The translations under genes were made by a program, and so were the position numbers. A stretch of DNA of 64,000 nucleotides from Egicoccus sp. AB-alg6-2. Lineage in GTDB: Bacteria; Actinomycetota; Nitriliruptoria; Nitriliruptorales; Nitriliruptoraceae. Location of the stretch: NCBI RefSeq assembly GCF_041821025.1, contig NZ_JBGUAY010000004.1, positions 124,001-188,000 of the forward strand. The letters run 5' to 3'. This document shows positions 1,253 through 9,525 of this stretch, one piece after another (position 1 is the stretch's first letter; each line of letters opens with the position of its first letter). The notes below the pieces were generated by a model. It did no database searches and was not told the DNA's origin. It saw only the letters and a list, made by a program, of their open reading frames with translations.

Positions 1253-1438
1253 ACCGGGGACCCGGCAGCGTAGGCCCGGGCGGCTGGCGGCGTGCGGATC
1301 CTGCGTCGGGACGTCGGCGAGGGGCGGCCCACACCGGCGAGTGCGCTTTGCGCAGCGGGCACGGCCGATGCGAGGAGCGCACATAGGCTGCAGCGCCCTC
1401 CGCCGTCGGTCGTTGGTTTCGAACGGCTGCGGGGAGGC

Positions 1439-3091
1439 ATGCCGAGTCCGGAGCAGTGCGTGAACGATCATCCCGAGCCCGCGGAGGATCGCCTCGACGT
1501 CCTGGGGCTGACACGTCCCACCTCGACGTTGCGTCGCGGGATGCTCTTCGCCACGGCCGCTGCCGCCGCACTCGCGTTCATGGTCTTCCTGGCCGTCGGA
1601 CCGGCACTGCCGAGCATCGTCACCGCCGTCCCGGCCGTGGTCACCTTCGCGATCGTCGCCGGGATCGCCTCGGCGTGGTTGCTGCAGGTCTACGACGAGA
1701 TCGACCACGACCCGGCCCTGTGCTGGATGGTGGCGGGCATCCTCGTCGCGGCGGTGGGGCTCGGGCTGGTCGTGCTGGGGTTCCCGACCCTGCTCCCCGA
1801 CGGTGGGCCGCTGGGTACCGGTCCGTCCGAGGTGGCAGCGCTGTACCTGACCTGGAAGACGGTGCTGGCGACGATGGCGATCCTCGCGCTCTCGCCGGTC
1901 GCCGCGGACCAGCGCTGGCGCCGGGGTGTGATCGCGGTCGCGCTCACGGTCACCTTCGTGGCGGCCTGGGGTGATGCCGGACCCGGCGTCCTGGTCGAGC
2001 CCGACGGCCAGTACTCGCTGCGCTTCCGCGGCCTGCTCACCGTGGTCACCGTGCTCACCGCCATCGCGACCTGGCGCTGGGTCGCCGCCGCCGGCCGCCA
2101 CCCGTCGTGGCCGCGAGCGTGGGTCACGGTCAGCCTCGGCCTGCAGACCTGGGACCTCGTGCTGTACAGCTTCGCCGAGCGGCGCTTCTCGATCGCATGG
2201 TGGGCGAGCCTCGGTATCCGGCTGGCCGCCTTCGCGACCCTGGCGCTGGGACTGCTCGCCGGCCTCCGCCGCGTCTTCCGCACCCTCGACCACTTCGCGG
2301 ACGAGATCGCCGACGTCGCGCAGGAGCGGGCGCGAGCCGCGGACCATCTCGCCGCAGCGAACGACGAACTGCAGGCGTTCGCCCACGTCGTCGCCCACGA
2401 CCTGCGCTCGCCGCTGACCAGCGCGTCGGGCTTCGTCGACCTCGCCCGCTCCCTTCCCGACGACCTGCCACCCGACGTCGCGGACTTCCTCGACCGCGCG
2501 AGCATCCAGCACCGCAGGATGGCGAGCCTGATCACCGACCTGCTCGAGTACGCCGAGGTCGCCAACGCCGACCTGCAGCGCGAGTGGGTCGACCTCACCG
2601 AACTCGGCCGCGAGGTCGTCCGCGAGCGGGGGGCGGAGGAGGTGGCCACCATCGAACCGTTGCCGGCCATCCTCGGCGACCGGATCCGGCTCCGTCAGCT
2701 GCTGGACAACCTCGTCGGCAACGCGATCAAGTACGTCCCGCCCGGGGTGGAACCGCACCTGCGCTTGTGGTCCGAAGAGCTCGGGTCGGGCACCTACGCC
2801 GTCCACGTCGACGACAACGGCATCGGGATCGATCCCGAGCGGGCGGAGGAGATCTTCCGACCGTTCGTGCGCACCAGTGACGCCCGCGCCGGCTACCCCG
2901 GCACCGGCATCGGGTTGGCCATCTGCCAGCGCGTCGTCGAACAGCACGCCGGCGAGATCTCCGCCGCGCCACGTCCGGGTGGCGGAACCCGTTTCACGTT
3001 CACGCTGCCGCGCACCGCACCACCGGCCCCGCCCGTGGTCGACGGGCCCTCGACCGCCGCCGTCAAGCAGGCTGACGTCCAGCCGGGATGA
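1439..3091 (+). CDS. Membrane sensor histidine kinase, orphan
   Basis: Sensor kinase of a two-component system. The N-terminal half (about residues 30-285) holds roughly seven to eight hydrophobic segments and no extracellular PAS-like domain, resembling MASE-type integral membrane sensors. A short coiled linker leads to a HisKA domain with the H-box VAHDLRSPL (phospho-acceptor His about residue 320), an N-box LLDNLVGNAIKYV, a G1 box DDNGIGIDP and a G2 box GTGIGLAICQRVV. The ATG at 1439 has GGGGAGG too close; the GTG at 1460 has GGAG six bases upstream and may be the true start. No response regulator is adjacent. It is transcribed away from prcB and converges on pup, splitting the proteasome locus. 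The signal it senses cannot be told from sequence. Confidence 0.9.
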   Translation: MPSPEQCVNDHPEPAEDRLDVLGLTRPTSTLRRGMLFATAAAAALAFMVFLAVGPALPSIVTAVPAVVTFAIVAGIASAWLLQVYDEIDHDPALCWMVAGILVAAVGLGLVVLGFPTLLPDGGPLGTGPSEVAALYLTWKTVLATMAILALSPVAADQRWRRGVIAVALTVTFVAAWGDAGPGVLVEPDGQYSLRFRGLLTVVTVLTAIATWRWVAAAGRHPSWPRAWVTVSLGLQTWDLVLYSFAERRFSIAWWASLGIRLAAFATLALGLLAGLRRVFRTLDHFADEIADVAQERARAADHLAAANDELQAFAHVVAHDLRSPLTSASGFVDLARSLPDDLPPDVADFLDRASIQHRRMASLITDLLEYAEVANADLQREWVDLTELGREVVRERGAEEVATIEPLPAILGDRIRLRQLLDNLVGNAIKYVPPGVEPHLRLWSEELGSGTYAVHVDDNGIGIDPERAEEIFRPFVRTSDARAGYPGTGIGLAICQRVVEQHAGEISAAPRPGGGTRFTFTLPRTAPPAPPVVDGPSTAAVKQADVQPG

Positions 3092-3497: not shown

Positions 3498-3698
3498 CTA
3501 CTGGCCGCCCTTCTGGACGTAGCCGCGGACGAATTCTTCGGCGTTCTCCTCGAGGACGTCGTCGATCTCGTCGAGCAGTTCGTCGACGTCGTCGAGGAGG
3601 TCCTTGGCGGTCTCGTCGGTCTCGGTCGTGGTCTGCTCGACCTCGTCGACCTCGTCCTGAGAGCTGCCGCCCTTGCGGACCTGGCCACCCTCGCTCAT
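3498..3698 (-). CDS. pup: Prokaryotic ubiquitin-like protein Pup
   Basis: 66-residue disordered protein tag that is ligated to lysines of substrates and threaded into the Arc ATPase for proteasomal degradation. The ATG at 3698 (preceded by a GGGAGG-type site) gives a start MSEGGQVRKGG; an in-frame start further upstream exists but extends into non-family sequence. The acidic helix-forming middle (residues about 32-55, rich in D, E, L) is the part that binds the Arc coiled coil. The C-terminus is GYVQKGGQ, so it is made in the Gln form and needs deamidation by Dop before ligation. It follows dop by 58 bp on the same strand. The ligase pafA is not in this window and may lie left of prcA. Confidence 0.96.
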   Translation of the reverse strand: MSEGGQVRKGGSSQDEVDEVEQTTTETDETAKDLLDDVDELLDEIDDVLEENAEEFVRGYVQKGGQ

Positions 3699-3756: not shown

Positions 3757-5244
3757 TCAGCCCTTGAGCGCCTGCAGCAACTCGGCGGCGTCGTCGACGC
3801 GGTCCAGCAACTCGCCGACGTGCTCGCGCGTCCCGCGGCCGGGTTCCATCATCGGCACCCGCTGCAGGGCGTCCTTGCCGGTGTCGAAGATCAACGAGTC
3901 CCAGCCCGCGGCCACCACCTCGGACGGGAACCGGCGCAGGCACTCGCCCCGGAACCAGGCCCGAGTGTCGGCCGGTGGGGTCGTCATCGCCGCGCGCACC
4001 TCGGCCTCGGACACGAGGCGCTCGACCCGTCCCCGTGCGGCGAGGCGTTGGTACAGCCCCTTGTCCTGGCGCACGTCGTGGTACTGCAGGTCGACCATCT
4101 TCAGCCGGTCGTGGTCGAAGCCGAGCCCGTGGCGGGCCGCGTACTGCTCCAGCAACTGCAGCTTGGTTGCCCAGTCGACCTGGCCCGCCAGCCGACGGGG
4201 GTCGTGCTCGGCGGTGGTGAGCAGCGCCTCCCAGCGGTCGAGCACGTCCTGCGCGGACGGGTCGGCGCGACCCTGTTCCTTGACGTAGCGGGCGGCCGCC
4301 TCGAAGTAGTGCCACTGCAGCTCGAGCGGCGTGACCCGCCGGCCGTCGTCGGTCGGCAGGGGCACGCGCCCGGTCAGATCGTGGCTGACGGCGTGGAAGG
4401 CCTGCACCGGCCGGTGGATCGCCGGCGGCTCCGGCAGCGCACCGTCCTCGATGAGGTCGAGCACGAGCAGCATCGTGCCGACCTTGAGGAACGTCGCCAC
4501 CTCGCACAGGTTCGCGTCGCCGTTGATGACGTGCAGCCGCCGGTAGCGCTCGGGGTCGGCATGGGGTTCGTCGCGGGTGTTCATGAGCGGCCGCTTGAGG
4601 GTGGTCTCGAGACCGACCTCGACCTCGAAGAAGTCGGCGCGCTGCGACAGCTGGAACGGCACGTCCTCGCCCCGGAACTCGGTGCCGAGACGGCCGGCGC
4701 CCACATAGAGCAGGCGACTGAGGAAGAACGGCTGCAACTGGCGCGTAAGGCGCCCGAACGGCACCTCGCGTGGCACGAGATAGTTCTCGTGGGTGCCGTA
4801 GGCGGCCCCCTTGCCGTCGGTGTTGTTCTTGTGGACCAGGACCCGATGACCGTCGGGCAGGGTGAGGGCGGCGCGACGGGCGGCGTCCTCGAGGATCCGC
4901 TCCCCCGCCTTGTCCCACACCACCAGGTCGCGCGCGTTCGAGCACTCCGGCGAGGCGTATTCGGGATGGGCGTGGTCGACGTAGAACCGCGCGCCGTTGG
5001 TCAGCACCGTGTTGGCGAGCCCGAGTTCGTCGTCCGTGACCGGCTCGTGCGGGTCCGGGGTGTCGTAGCCACGCGCGTCACGCATCGGGTGTTCGTCGGT
5101 GTGGTCCCAGCGGACGTCGCGGTCACCGGCGCCGCGGTAGGCGCCGACGACCAGCGAGGACGCCAACACGGGGTTGACCTCGCGCGGACCGTCGACGGTG
5201 ATCCCGTACTCGGTCTCGACGCCGACGAACTTCTTCGATGCCAC
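3757..5244 (-). CDS. dop: Pup deamidase/depupylase Dop
   Basis: Converts the C-terminal Gln of Pup to Glu and also removes Pup from substrates; a carboxylate-amine ligase (glutamine-synthetase-like) fold enzyme acting in the cytosol. The protein is 495 residues. The N-terminus has VGVETEYG, the metal/ATP-binding glutamates, and the segment FYVDHAHPEY contains the Asp (D90) equivalent to the catalytic Asp of Dop. The Dop form NGARFYVDHAHPEY and the length distinguish it from the shorter ligase PafA. It lies between arc and pup, with 58 bp from the arc stop, matching the actinobacterial arc-dop-pup order. The ATG at 5244 is the first start of the conserved N-terminus and is preceded by a GAAAGGGG-like site. 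Confidence 0.95.
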   Translation of the reverse strand: MASKKFVGVETEYGITVDGPREVNPVLASSLVVGAYRGAGDRDVRWDHTDEHPMRDARGYDTPDPHEPVTDDELGLANTVLTNGARFYVDHAHPEYASPECSNARDLVVWDKAGERILEDAARRAALTLPDGHRVLVHKNNTDGKGAAYGTHENYLVPREVPFGRLTRQLQPFFLSRLLYVGAGRLGTEFRGEDVPFQLSQRADFFEVEVGLETTLKRPLMNTRDEPHADPERYRRLHVINGDANLCEVATFLKVGTMLLVLDLIEDGALPEPPAIHRPVQAFHAVSHDLTGRVPLPTDDGRRVTPLELQWHYFEAAARYVKEQGRADPSAQDVLDRWEALLTTAEHDPRRLAGQVDWATKLQLLEQYAARHGLGFDHDRLKMVDLQYHDVRQDKGLYQRLAARGRVERLVSEAEVRAAMTTPPADTRAWFRGECLRRFPSEVVAAGWDSLIFDTGKDALQRVPMMEPGRGTREHVGELLDRVDDAAELLQALKG

Positions 5245-5302: not shown

Positions 5303-7099
5303 CTACAGGTACTGGCCCGGGTTGAGGTTCTCGATCGCCCGGCCCGGTGTGGCGCTGTCGCCGCTGATGAGGGTGCGCACGTAGACGATCCGCTCGCCCT
5401 TCTTGCCCGAGATACGGGCCCAGTCGTCGGGGTTGGTCGTGTTCGGCAGGTCCTCGTTCTCGCGGAACTCGTCGCGGATCGCCCGCAGGAGGTCGTCGGT
5501 GGACAACCCCTTCGGACCGTCGGCGAGCACCCGCTTGATGGCGTACTTCTTGGCGCGCGCCACGACGTTCTCGATCATGGCGCCGGAGTTGAAGTCCTTG
5601 AAGTACAGGACCTCCTTCTCGCCGTTGGCGTAGGTCACCTCGAGGAACTCGTTGTCGCGGTCGGCCGCATACATCTTGTCGACGGTGCGGTCGATCATGG
5701 CCCGCACGGCCGTCGCCGCGTCCCCGTGGGTCGAGATCTCGTCCGGGTGCAGCGGCAGACGCTCGTGCAGGTAGATCCCGAAGATCTCGCGGGCGGCCTC
5801 GGTGCCGGGCCGGTCGACCTTGATCTTCACGTCGAGCCGGCCGGGCCGCAGAATCGCGGGGTCGATCATGTCCTCGCGGTTGGAGGCGCCGATGACCACC
5901 ACGTCCTTGAGGCTCTCGACTCCGTCGATCTCGGCGAGCAGCTGCGGCACGATGGTGGTCTCGACGTCGGAGGAGACGCCGGAGCCGCGGGTACGGAACA
6001 GCGACTCCATCTCGTCGAAGAAGACGATCACGGGGAAGCCCTCGGCCGACTTCTCGCGCGCCCGCTGGAAGATCAGGCGGATCTGGCGTTCGGTCTCGCC
6101 CACGTACTTGTTGAGCAGCTCGGGTCCCTTGACGTTGAGGAAGTAGCTGCGCACGTCCTGGCGTCCGGTCTTGTCGCGCACGCGTTGCGCCAGGGAATTG
6201 GCCACGGCCTTGGCGATCATGGTCTTGCCGCACCCGGGCGGGCCGTAGAGCAGGATCCCCTTCGGTGCCCGCAGTTCGTGCTCGACGAACAGATCGGCAT
6301 GGAGGTACGGCAGCTCGACCGCGTCGCGGATGGCCTCGACCTGTTCCTTCAGGCCGCCGATCTGCTCGTAGGAGATGTCGGGGACCTGCTCGAGGACGAG
6401 CTGTTCGACCTCGGCCTTCGGGATGCGCTCGACGGCGGTGTTGGAGCGCGTGTCGACCAGCAGGGAGTCCCCCGCCTTCAACGGCAGGTCGCGCAACGGG
6501 TCGGCGAGGTGGATGACGCGTTCGTCATCGGTGTGCCCGAGCACGACCGCGCGGCCGTCGCCGAGGAGTTCGGCGATGACCATCAGCTCACCGCGGCTCT
6601 CGAACGCGCCTGCGGCGACCACGTTCATGGACTCGTTGAGCAGTACCTCCTGGCCGGTGCGCAGCGCGTCCAGGTCGATCTCGGGGCTGATGCCCACCTC
6701 GAGCTTGCGGCCCGACACCATCACCGTCACGGTGTCGGCCTCGTCGGCCTTGCCGAGATAGGTCGCGTAGGACTGCGGGGGCGCGGCGAGCCGCTCGACC
6801 TCCTCGCGCATCTGCGCGAGCTGGTCGCGGGCGGCGCGCAGGGTCTCGCTGAGCTTGTCGTTCTGCGCCAACGCGCCCTGCAGCTTGCCCTTGGTCTCGA
6901 GCAGCCGTTCCTCGAGCAGGCGGATGCGGGTCGGCGCGGATTCGAGCCGGCGCCGCAGCAGGTCGACCTCCTCGCGCAGGAACTTCAGCTCCGCGGCGAG
7001 CTCGTCGGGATCCTGGTCACCGCCCGCCTGCCGCCCGAGCGCATGCGGGTCGCTCGCCGGGCGCGGATCGTGCGAGGGGCGGTCCGGACGCTGGTTCAC
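5303..7099 (-). CDS. arc: Proteasome-associated AAA ATPase Arc/Mpa
   Basis: Hexameric unfoldase that recognises Pup and feeds pupylated proteins into PrcBA. With the GTG at 7099 (AGGAGG four bases upstream) it is 598 residues. In order: a disordered Gln/Pro/Asp-rich N-tail, a coiled coil at about 32-104 that binds Pup, two OB-fold domains at about 110-235, and one AAA module with Walker A GPPGCGKT (286-293) and Walker [11 protein letters not shown]. The protein ends NPGQYL, the penultimate-Tyr tail that docks into the 20S alpha ring. Longer in-frame starts exist but have no ribosome site. A TACACT hexamer at 7192-7197 (minus strand) could be a -10 element for an arc-dop-pup transcript. Confidence 0.95.
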
Positions 7100-7283
7100 G
7101 GGGCCTCCTACCGCAGGGTGACGAACCCTCTCGTCGAGGCCTCCGGGCGGGCGAACCGAGGCGCGTCCGTCCAGGTGCCTCATGACGGGCGAGTGTATGG
7201 CACACCCCCGCCGCGGCTGGCGGACCCCGCGTCCACGCCGGGCAAAGCGTGCGAGCAACGAGCGCAGCCGGGGCGCGGACGGG

Positions 7284-8225
7284 TCAGGAGCGGCCGTCGA
7301 CGTGGTCGGACTCCACCGCGGGGGCCTCGCTCCAGACCACGCCCGGGCCGAGGTCGGCCTTGCGCCGCGGGGGCGGCGGACCGCCCTCGTCGCGCGACGG
7401 CACCCGGCGTGCGGTCGTCAGGAACGCCGTGTGCGCCACCATGCGGTGGGCGGGCCGCACCGCCAGCCCGTCCACGTCCCAGGGGCGCACCAGCGTCTCG
7501 GTGGTGCGGACGTCGGTGAAGCGACCGTCCGCCCACAGCGACTCGCTGAACCGCATGACCTGCGGAACGCTTGGCATGTAGGCCAGCACGATGGCGCCGG
7601 GCGGCAGCGCCTGCGCGGCACCGGGGACGAGCAGCCACGGTTCGAGCAGGTCGAGCACGAGGCGGTGGGGCCGCACCCCGAGCTCGGTCAGGCCCTCCTG
7701 GAGGTCGCCGTCGACGAGGTCCCAGTTGTCGGGCATCCCGCCGAGGAAGCGGCTGACGTTGCGTCGGGCATGGGCGGCGTGGTCCTCGCGTCGCTCGAAC
7801 GAGACCACGCGGCCGCTCGGACCAACGGCCGCCAACAACGCCAGGGTCAGCGCGCCGGACCCGGCGCCGGCCTCGACGACCGTGCAACCGGGACGGATGT
7901 CGGCGGCGGCGACGATCGCCGCCTGGTCCTTGGGGTAGACCACCTGCGCACCGCGTTTCATCTTCAGCACGTAGTCCTCACGCGTCGGGCGCAGCACCAC
8001 GATCTCCATGTTGCGGTTGGTGCGCACGGCCGTTCCCTCGGCGACCCCGATCAGGTCGTCGTGCGGCACCAGGCCGGCGTGGCTGTGCCACTCCGACCCA
8101 GGTACCAGCTCGAGCAGGTAGCGGCGACGGCGTCGGTCGATGAGGACCACCAGTTCGCCGGCAGCGATCGGCGCGTCCGTTCCGGGCAGGAGCGGGGCGA
8201 TCGTCTGCGGTTCGGCGTCGGTCAT
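7284..8225 (-). CDS. trmI: tRNA (adenine(58)-N1)-methyltransferase TrmI
   Basis: SAM-dependent enzyme that makes m1A58 in the T-loop of tRNAs. The 313-residue product has an N-terminal beta-barrel region containing [18 protein letters not shown] and a Rossmann domain with the SAM motif [12 protein letters not shown] (about 117-127), preceded by YPKDQAAI, a TrmI hallmark. It starts 3 bp after the stop of the upstream ttuB-ttuA fusion, so the two tRNA-modification genes are very probably co-transcribed. In actinobacteria trmI is a common neighbour of arc. The 184-bp gap to arc may hold a separate promoter. Confidence 0.93.
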
Positions 8226-8228
8226 ACG

Positions 8229-9416
8229 TCAGGATCCAGTGGTCGGGTGGGTCGGGGCGGCGGTGGCGCCGCTCAGAACGGGCAGGGCGGCGAGGATGCG
8301 CTCGCGCTGGCGGCAGAACGCGCAGACCTCGCCGACCGTTGGCATGGCGCAGCGGGTGCAGGCCCCCACGACGGGGGCGTCCCCGTCGCGGTCGGCCTCG
8401 CCGAAGCGGTCGTGGCGGTCGAGGAACCCGAACAGGAACTGCGCCTTGGCGCCCGGCGCCGCCCGCTCGAGCGCGTTGAGGATGTTCTTGTGCTCGTGGC
8501 CGGTGTTGCCGTCGACCAGCGGACACTCCTCGACCACGTAGTCGATGCCCCGGATGACGCAGTAGGCGGCCATCTCACGTTCGGAGAGCCGGTACAGCGG
8601 CTTGCACTTGCGAACCTGGTTGGTGCCCATGGCGGGCAGCACCGGACGCTGACGGGCCAGGAAGTCGTCGTGCCAGCGCAACACGTTGCCCAGCAGGGTC
8701 GCCGCCTCGTCGTCGAGGTTGTGCCCGGTCGCGACCGCGTCGTAGCCGTGCTCGACCGCGACCCGGTTGAACACGTACCGCTTGCTCAGACCGCACACCC
8801 CGCACGTGGAGCGGGTCGTGGCCTGCGAGCCGGTGACGGTGGAGTAGCCATAGGTCTCGGCGAGGTCGACGACGTGCAGTCGGGCGCCGCGTGCGGCGGC
8901 GAAGTCCTCGCAGATCTGCTGGCTGCGGCGCGAGTACCCCCCGATGCCCAGACCGATGTAGAGCCCGTCGGCCCGGTAACCGAGGTCGAGCAGGACGTCC
9001 CACAGGGCCAGGGAGTCCTTGCCGCCGGAAACGGCCACGAGGATGCGGTCGGCGTAGGAGAACATCCGCTCGCGCGACGGCGAGGCCTGCGGATGGTCGA
9101 TCGCCTTCCGGATCTGGTTGTGCACGTGGTCGACGAAGTGCGTCGGACACCACGCCGCGCGATGGCGGGGCTCTTCGATGACCGCCGCGCGCCGGCAGAC
9201 GACGCACGTCGGTCCGCCCGCGCCACCGGAGATGACCGGGCGGATCTCGACCTCGTCGGCGTCGCCGAGCTGGTGGTCGGCGGTGACCAGCGAGCCGGCA
9301 CAGATGACCAGCACCGTGGCCGGGTTGATGTCGAGCCGATCGAGCAGCTCTCCGACGGTGAGCGCCCCTTCGAGCTGCTCGACGCGGTCGGGATTGCGCA
9401 GGCGTACGCGCACCAC
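8229..9416 (-). CDS. ttuA: tRNA 2-thiolation enzyme TtuA fused to an N-terminal TtuB-like sulfur carrier
   Basis: Two proteins that are separate in Thermus are joined here. Residues 1-65 (VRVRLRNPDRVEQ ... PVISGG) match a ubiquitin-fold sulfur carrier of the TtuB/ThiS/MoaD type, ending in the diglycine whose C-terminus is normally thiocarboxylated. A three-residue AGG linker follows, then a complete TtuA/TtcA-family enzyme: zinc ligands C71xxC74 and C90xxH93, PP-loop ATP site SGGKDS (130-135), iron-sulfur cysteines C205, C208 and C271, and a C-terminal zinc motif CTRC...CAFC. The start at GTG 9416 is chosen because AGGAGG lies nine bases upstream; an in-frame GTG at 9470 has none. The likely role is 2-thiouridine formation in tRNA. 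How the internal GG is used without cleavage is unknown. Confidence 0.88.
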   Translation of the reverse strand: MVRVRLRNPDRVEQLEGALTVGELLDRLDINPATVLVICAGSLVTADHQLGDADEVEIRPVISGGAGGPTCVVCRRAAVIEEPRHRAAWCPTHFVDHVHNQIRKAIDHPQASPSRERMFSYADRILVAVSGGKDSLALWDVLLDLGYRADGLYIGLGIGGYSRRSQQICEDFAAARGARLHVVDLAETYGYSTVTGSQATTRSTCGVCGLSKRYVFNRVAVEHGYDAVATGHNLDDEAATLLGNVLRWHDDFLARQRPVLPAMGTNQVRKCKPLYRLSEREMAAYCVIRGIDYVVEECPLVDGNTGHEHKNILNALERAAPGAKAQFLFGFLDRHDRFGEADRDGDAPVVGACTRCAMPTVGEVCAFCRQRERILAALPVLSGATAAPTHPTTGS

Positions 9417-9525
9417 GGGACGCGACCTCCTGGGTGGGTTGGGCGATGCCGGAGAGCTCGGCTCGGGCACCTGGTGCCGACGCGGTCGGCGGCCCGACAG
9501 CCTAGCGAGCGGGCGCCCGGGCCCG

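Follow-up and report, generated by a model that had tools for sequence, protein, structure and literature searches.

A TtuB-like sulfur carrier fused in frame to its TtuA-type tRNA thiolase in Egicoccus: a putative pro-enzyme

The gene described here encodes a TtuB-like sulfur carrier and a TtuA enzyme in one chain, and the fusion is real, not an artefact. It lies in the window, the 64,000-nucleotide stretch of DNA that was analysed, and its parts and neighbours are listed in Table 1. We consider it likely (probability about 0.8) that the gene encodes a pro-enzyme that is cut after Gly65 to yield a free carrier and TtuA, for the 2-thiolation of a tRNA T-loop uridine.

Table 1. Coordinates of the fused gene, its parts and the neighbouring genes in the window.
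Feature	Position	Strand	Basis
395-aa fused gene with GTG start and TGA stop	8229..9416	-	Sequence and conservation in 45 distinct homologues
Shine-Dalgarno-like AGGAGG, nine bases 5' of the GTG start	9426..9431	-	Sequence
TtuB/ThiS-like carrier, residues 1-65, β-grasp fold	9222..9416	-	Pfam, phmmer, model
Gly64-Gly65, putative carrier C-terminus after processing	9222..9227	-	SGG invariant in 45 fusions
Linker A-G-G-P-T, residues 66-70, variable among homologues, no start codon	9207..9221	-	Sequence and alignment
Complete TtuA, residues 71-395	8232..9206	-	Pfam, alignment, fold match
TrmI-type tRNA (m1A58) methyltransferase, begins 3 bases past the fusion stop	7284..8225	-	Pfam GCD14, TrmI-like_N
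Mpa/ARC proteasomal ATPase (start uncertain)	5303..7258	-	TIGR03689, 778.6 bits
Dop depupylase	3757..5244	-	TIGR03688, 619.2 bits
Pup, 66 aa, ending GGQ	3498..3698	-	Sequence, by eye

The earlier note had placed a carrier-enzyme fusion at 8229-9416. The fusion was confirmed; the strand, absent from that claim, is minus, and the plus-strand reading of the same interval is not the gene. The open reading frame containing the gene runs from 9470 to 8229, with the TGA at 8231-8229 and the likely GTG start at 9416-9414. The ribosome site AGGAGG reported before the carrier is present at 9431-9426. As the note had also stated, a single uninterrupted frame passes through the junction I-S-G-G-A-G-G-P-T-C with zero stops, and the Pfam domains ThiS (33.3 bits for the isolated domain), TtuA_LIM_N (32.1 bits) and ATP_bind_3 (45.8 bits) all fall within it, each above its cut-off (22.5, 27 and 27 bits, respectively). 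Two objections raised beforehand can be dismissed. A sequencing frameshift, between residues 65 and 69 or elsewhere, was ruled out as the source of the fusion because the same fused frame recurs in 45 distinct homologues. An internal start right after the Gly-Gly was excluded because the stretch from the Gly-Gly to the first zinc-finger Cys (GGT GGC GCG GGC GGA CCG ACG TGC) contains no in-frame ATG, GTG or TTG; a Met in the junction is retained only in two distant fusions, L073 and L074.

Profile, sequence and predicted fold all bear out the proposal that the first 65 residues form a TtuB/ThiS-type carrier ending in SGG. In a phmmer search against the PDB, residues 3-65 matched Thermus TtuB (5ztb_E, E 1.6e-4), and the match stopped at the final residue of that chain. 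Modelled alone, the carrier was predicted to adopt the β-grasp (ubiquitin) fold with a mean pLDDT of 85. Its best structural match was TtuB 5gha_H (Z 11.7, rmsd 1.3 Å over 63 residues), followed by 5ztb_E (Z 11.4), and the subsequent rows were MoaD and SAMP2, near Z 9. A chance domain match was excluded by the profile, the phmmer match and the fold, and the suspicion that these residues might lack a ubiquitin fold does not hold. The domain thus belongs to the ThiS family by both profile and structure. Its Gly-Gly is not free in the encoded polypeptide, where the chain continues into AGGPT and TtuA, and we filed the domain as a pro-carrier, not as a TtuB, because a free end would need processing.

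The same three lines of evidence agree with the claim of a full TtuA-type enzyme after the carrier. Residues 70-373 matched Thermus TtuA 5gha_A in the PDB sequence search (E 6e-80). The AlphaFold2 model of the whole protein had a mean pLDDT of 92, and its TtuA part superposed on 5ztb_B with Z 39.6 and 1.6 Å over 298 residues. The two halves, in other words, find their best matches in the partner proteins of a single known complex, that of the Thermus TtuA-TtuB crystals. The best NCBIfam match was NF049949, the equivalog of TtuA (group II TtcA-type tRNA 2-thiolase), at 255 bits against a cut-off of 450 for this Pyrococcus-based model. NcsA, the U34 thiolase, was rejected as the identity of this half, being weaker than TtuA in both comparisons (117 vs 255 bits, Z 29.8 vs 39.6). 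Judged from the alignment of 37 fusions, the TtuA half retains every Zn-finger, Fe-S and PP-loop residue. The Zn-finger residues (C71, C74, H85, C90, C353, C356, C365 and C368) were invariant, as was the PP-loop SGGKDS (S130-S135). Cys205, Cys208, Cys298 and Lys212, which align with Thermus Cys130, Cys133, Cys222 and Lys137, were invariant as well.

The linker joins Gly65 to TtuA, in line with the earlier description of Gly-Gly followed by AGG and then the enzyme. In the whole-protein model, pLDDT fell below 50 solely at residues 64-66, Gly-Gly-Ala, and the junction is predicted to be flexible. To compare loci, we sorted them with separate profiles for each half into fused, split-adjacent and no-carrier classes, which after duplicate removal left 45 distinct fusions and 98 split neighbour pairs. 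SGG ends the carrier in all 143 (45/45 and 98/98). Across the fusions, Gly-Gly is encoded by 12 different codon pairs, from which it follows that the conservation acts at the protein level. The linkers, by comparison, took 34 forms of 4-14 residues; entropy was 0 bits at SGG and 1.8-2.7 bits from the second linker residue onward. The residue directly after Gly-Gly was Ala in 41 fusions and Ser in 4, so that every one of the 45 had the carrier N-terminal to its partner, Gly-Gly at the junction and a small residue next. Only 21 of the 98 split carriers end exactly at SGG; the other 77 extend 1-18 residues further, most commonly by two (44 cases), and frequently at loci with overlapping carrier and ttuA frames. 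Given these tails, this carrier family in general appears to need an exposed Gly-Gly. If a free Gly-Gly is indeed needed, the tailed split carriers must be trimmed too, and the fusion would be the extreme of a common tailed-carrier design.

Of the three possibilities set out for such a chain (cleavage, tethered chemistry or an accessory N-domain), the comparative data favour cleavage. SGG is invariant while the linker varies, the split relatives are mostly tailed, and known MoaD-MoaE fusions are cut. MoaX of Mycobacterium tuberculosis is cleaved between Gly82 and Ser83, its uncut form being inactive (PMC4326299), and the Deinococcus MoaD-MoaE fusion DR2607 is cut by the JAMM protease DR0402, which leaves a C-terminal Gly (PMC8832034). 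In Thermus, the TtuB C-terminus coordinates the unique iron of the TtuA [4Fe-4S] cluster (PMC7138817), for which a free carboxyl or thiocarboxyl end would be needed.

By analogy with these systems, we propose that the fused chain is a pro-enzyme for 2-thiolation of a tRNA T-loop uridine, most likely U54. A post-translational cut between Gly65 and Ala66 would separate the TtuA enzyme from a TtuB-like carrier with -SGG as its C-terminus. A MoeZ-type E1 (ThiF plus rhodanese) would then adenylate and thiocarboxylate Gly65, and the carrier thiocarboxylate would dock on the TtuA [4Fe-4S] cluster (Cys205, Cys208 and Cys298, with Lys212), from which sulfur would pass to the adenylated uridine of the tRNA, as happens in Thermus. 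The fusion would secure 1:1 co-production of the two proteins, as translational overlap does in the split relatives. Tail removal in the QbsE/QbsD system is a further precedent for carrier trimming.

The carrier might instead work uncut, for example through a persulfide or an Fe-S-held free sulfide, or TtuA might cleave or transacylate itself at Gly65. The gene has no in-frame internal start, no recognised protease gene lies directly beside it in the minus-strand run examined, and the fusion persists through most of a class, all of which would suit such a route. We nevertheless regard it as improbable: a Gly held in an internal amide is unable to bear a thiocarboxylate, Thermus TtuB binds the cluster through its free C-terminus, and MoaX is inactive when its cleavage is blocked. 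An uncut carrier would also leave unexplained both the invariant SGG beside a free-form linker and the tails on most split carriers. We know of no uncut or self-releasing chemistry for any ubiquitin-like sulfur carrier. It is quite improbable, in our estimate, that no separate protease takes part, whether because the intact chain thiolates with Gly65 amide-bound or because the TtuA half releases the carrier at its own Fe-S site.

The rest of the genome is consistent with cleavage, since the JAMM and TtuC-like E1 genes that the earlier note had proposed seeking are both present. The E1 is of MoeZ type, with ThiF and rhodanese domains. The most probable protease, proposed with less assurance than the cut itself, is a Mec/desampylase-like JAMM metalloprotease: a JAB protein with the HSHTHTQAYPSSTD motif, encoded at G000:C2:395801-396250, ~5 kb from a CysO-like gene, whose best match is the haloarchaeal desampylase, below that model's cut-off. 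Thermus loses half of its tRNA thiouridine when a JAMM homologue is deleted (PMC3980101). A second JAB gene of the genome was set aside as a candidate because it adjoins an E1-like ThiF of the Cap2/Cap3 kind; this pair, at G000:C2:258195-259320 (L053, L135), matches Cap2/Cap3-type anti-phage families weakly and is possibly a defence operon. JAMM genes occur in 59 of the 66 class genomes, with or without the fusion. Their absence is weakly commoner with exact-GG carriers (4/15 against 3/45, Fisher p 0.058). No clear Prok-JAB gene was found in G045 (98% complete, 5% contaminated), which carries the fusion, a point in favour of uncut or self-processing chemistry; if JAMM is truly absent there, another protease must act.

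Five ThiS-family domains are encoded in the genome, counting the TtuB-like fusion. The others are a MoaX-like MoaD-MoaE fusion (L001, G000:C1:77807-78037 and onward; junction VAGG/AATDD), a CysO-like protein with a tail past Gly-Gly (AVAGG/AEAK...), a MoaD-like protein with two residues past it (AVAGG/VA) and ThiS, the sole carrier of the genome that ends exactly at Gly-Gly. That the other carriers share the pattern, with ThiS as the one exception, further supports the cleavage reading. Four additional domains could also mean that one of them serves TtuA and that the fused N-domain has become an accessory one, for docking or tRNA binding; in ThiF fusions, one survey suggests, the ubiquitin-like domain serves another role (PMC1779556). 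We find this very unlikely, as SGG and the preceding E57, R59 and V61 never vary among the aligned fusions, the four are recognisably MoaD-MoaE, CysO-like, MoaD-like and ThiS, and the ThiS-family domains of the genome included no second TtuB-like copy.

The fusion is followed on the minus strand by TrmI, Mpa, Dop and Pup, in this order. A sensor histidine kinase frame on the plus strand (1292-3091, by eye) lies between Pup and the proteasome β subunit (stop near 413), interrupting the usual Pup-proteasome gene run. Of the loci examined, 75 of 90 with split genes and 9 of 11 with the fusion had TrmI near the carrier-TtuA genes; both counts are lower bounds, several loci being short. Thermus TrmI makes m1A58, which acts as a positive determinant of 2-thiolation at position 54 (PMC6313347). 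Together with the adjoining TrmI gene, this favours U54 as the most likely target, the neighbourhood being suggestive. TrmFO was not found in the genome, which has only one weak TrmA/RlmD-type gene; m5U54, the Thermus substrate, may therefore not exist here, and TtuA may act on unmodified U54, or on m5U54 from a methyltransferase that was not recognised.

The presence of Mpa, Dop and Pup nearby also invites the view that the processed carrier mainly modifies proteins, in connection with the Pup-proteasome genes, and that tRNA thiolation is minor. Thermus TtuB is conjugated to lysines including TtuA Lys137 (PMC3980101), whose equivalent here, Lys212, is the invariant residue noted above. The TtuA active-site residues are fully kept, though, the closest and most conserved neighbour is a tRNA enzyme, TrmI, and the carrier-TtuA pair also occurs beside TrmI without Mpa in the stretch examined. 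We give a chiefly protein-modifying role little credence and retain processing for tRNA thiolation as the preferred reading.

The search for this architecture among TtuA homologues, suggested in the earlier note, placed the 45 distinct fused genes mostly in the class Nitriliruptoria (Actinomycetota), where 48 of 66 genomes had a match. A TtuA of the fusion's family was present in 64 of the 296 genomes sampled from the phylum. Genomes G071, G074, G088, G099, G102 and G231 carry fusions outside Nitriliruptoria. On a tree of 154 TtuA sequences, the fused and split states must have interchanged at least seven times; this quick-search tree does not distinguish gain from loss of the fusion. Split pairs from G022, G023, G026 and G017 are nested in the fused clade, and G024 is fused although it belongs to the same genus as the split G022 and G023. 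At the G017 locus (L048:3600-3704, minus strand), a stop falls exactly after SGG and a new ATG for TtuA follows a few bases on; this is a natural undoing of the fusion, on a contig that starts only a few codons upstream. In the TtuA tree, the ttuB-ttuA pair of three contigs titled Bifidobacterium breve (L152, L165, L187) clusters with Acidimicrobiia, and the organism name looks wrong.

Among the closest known systems is TtuB and TtuA of Thermus thermophilus (tRNA-5-methyluridine(54) 2-sulfurtransferase; 5ZTB, 5GHA), which shares the domains, Zn fingers, Fe-S cysteines, Lys137 equivalent and carrier Gly-Gly; there the proteins are separate, with a free Gly-Gly end, whereas here they form one chain with an internal Gly-Gly, and TrmFO was not found. 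The split carrier-ttuA pairs of Acidimicrobiia, Nitrospirota, Bacillota and others have the same two proteins in the same order, often with TrmI as a neighbour, but in two reading frames and with carriers that stop at Gly-Gly or bear the 1-18-residue tail. MoaX and DR2607 likewise fuse an N-terminal ubiquitin-like carrier to the enzyme that it feeds; their partner is MoaE, of molybdopterin synthesis, and not a tRNA thiolase. Excerpts of two surveys (PMC1779556, PMC2948915) describe ThiS/MoaD-type domains fused to ThiG, MoaE, sulfite reductase, ThiF and Cgi121, that is, carrier-type domains with other partners, and ThiS genes adjoining PP-loop ATPase genes; a ThiS/TtuB-PP-loop ATPase fusion was not found in these excerpts. 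Literature searches of open-licence PMC papers returned no published TtuB-TtuA fusion. The fusion may have been mentioned earlier in other papers, and domain databases may include the architecture without comment.

Known parts, a sulfur carrier and a tRNA thiolase, are joined here in a new way. The fusion would extend to tRNA 2-thiolation the logic of ubiquitin and MoaX, in which a precursor is cut after Gly-Gly. Fusion and fission have been repeated around an unchanging SGG, and the comparison suggests that most actinobacterial TtuB-like carriers, unfused ones included, need C-terminal trimming. Reports of 2-thiouridine at tRNA position 54 come from thermophiles, with none from mesophiles (PMC6313347). 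The fusion predicts that actinobacterial lineages without a record of thermophily would also make this base.
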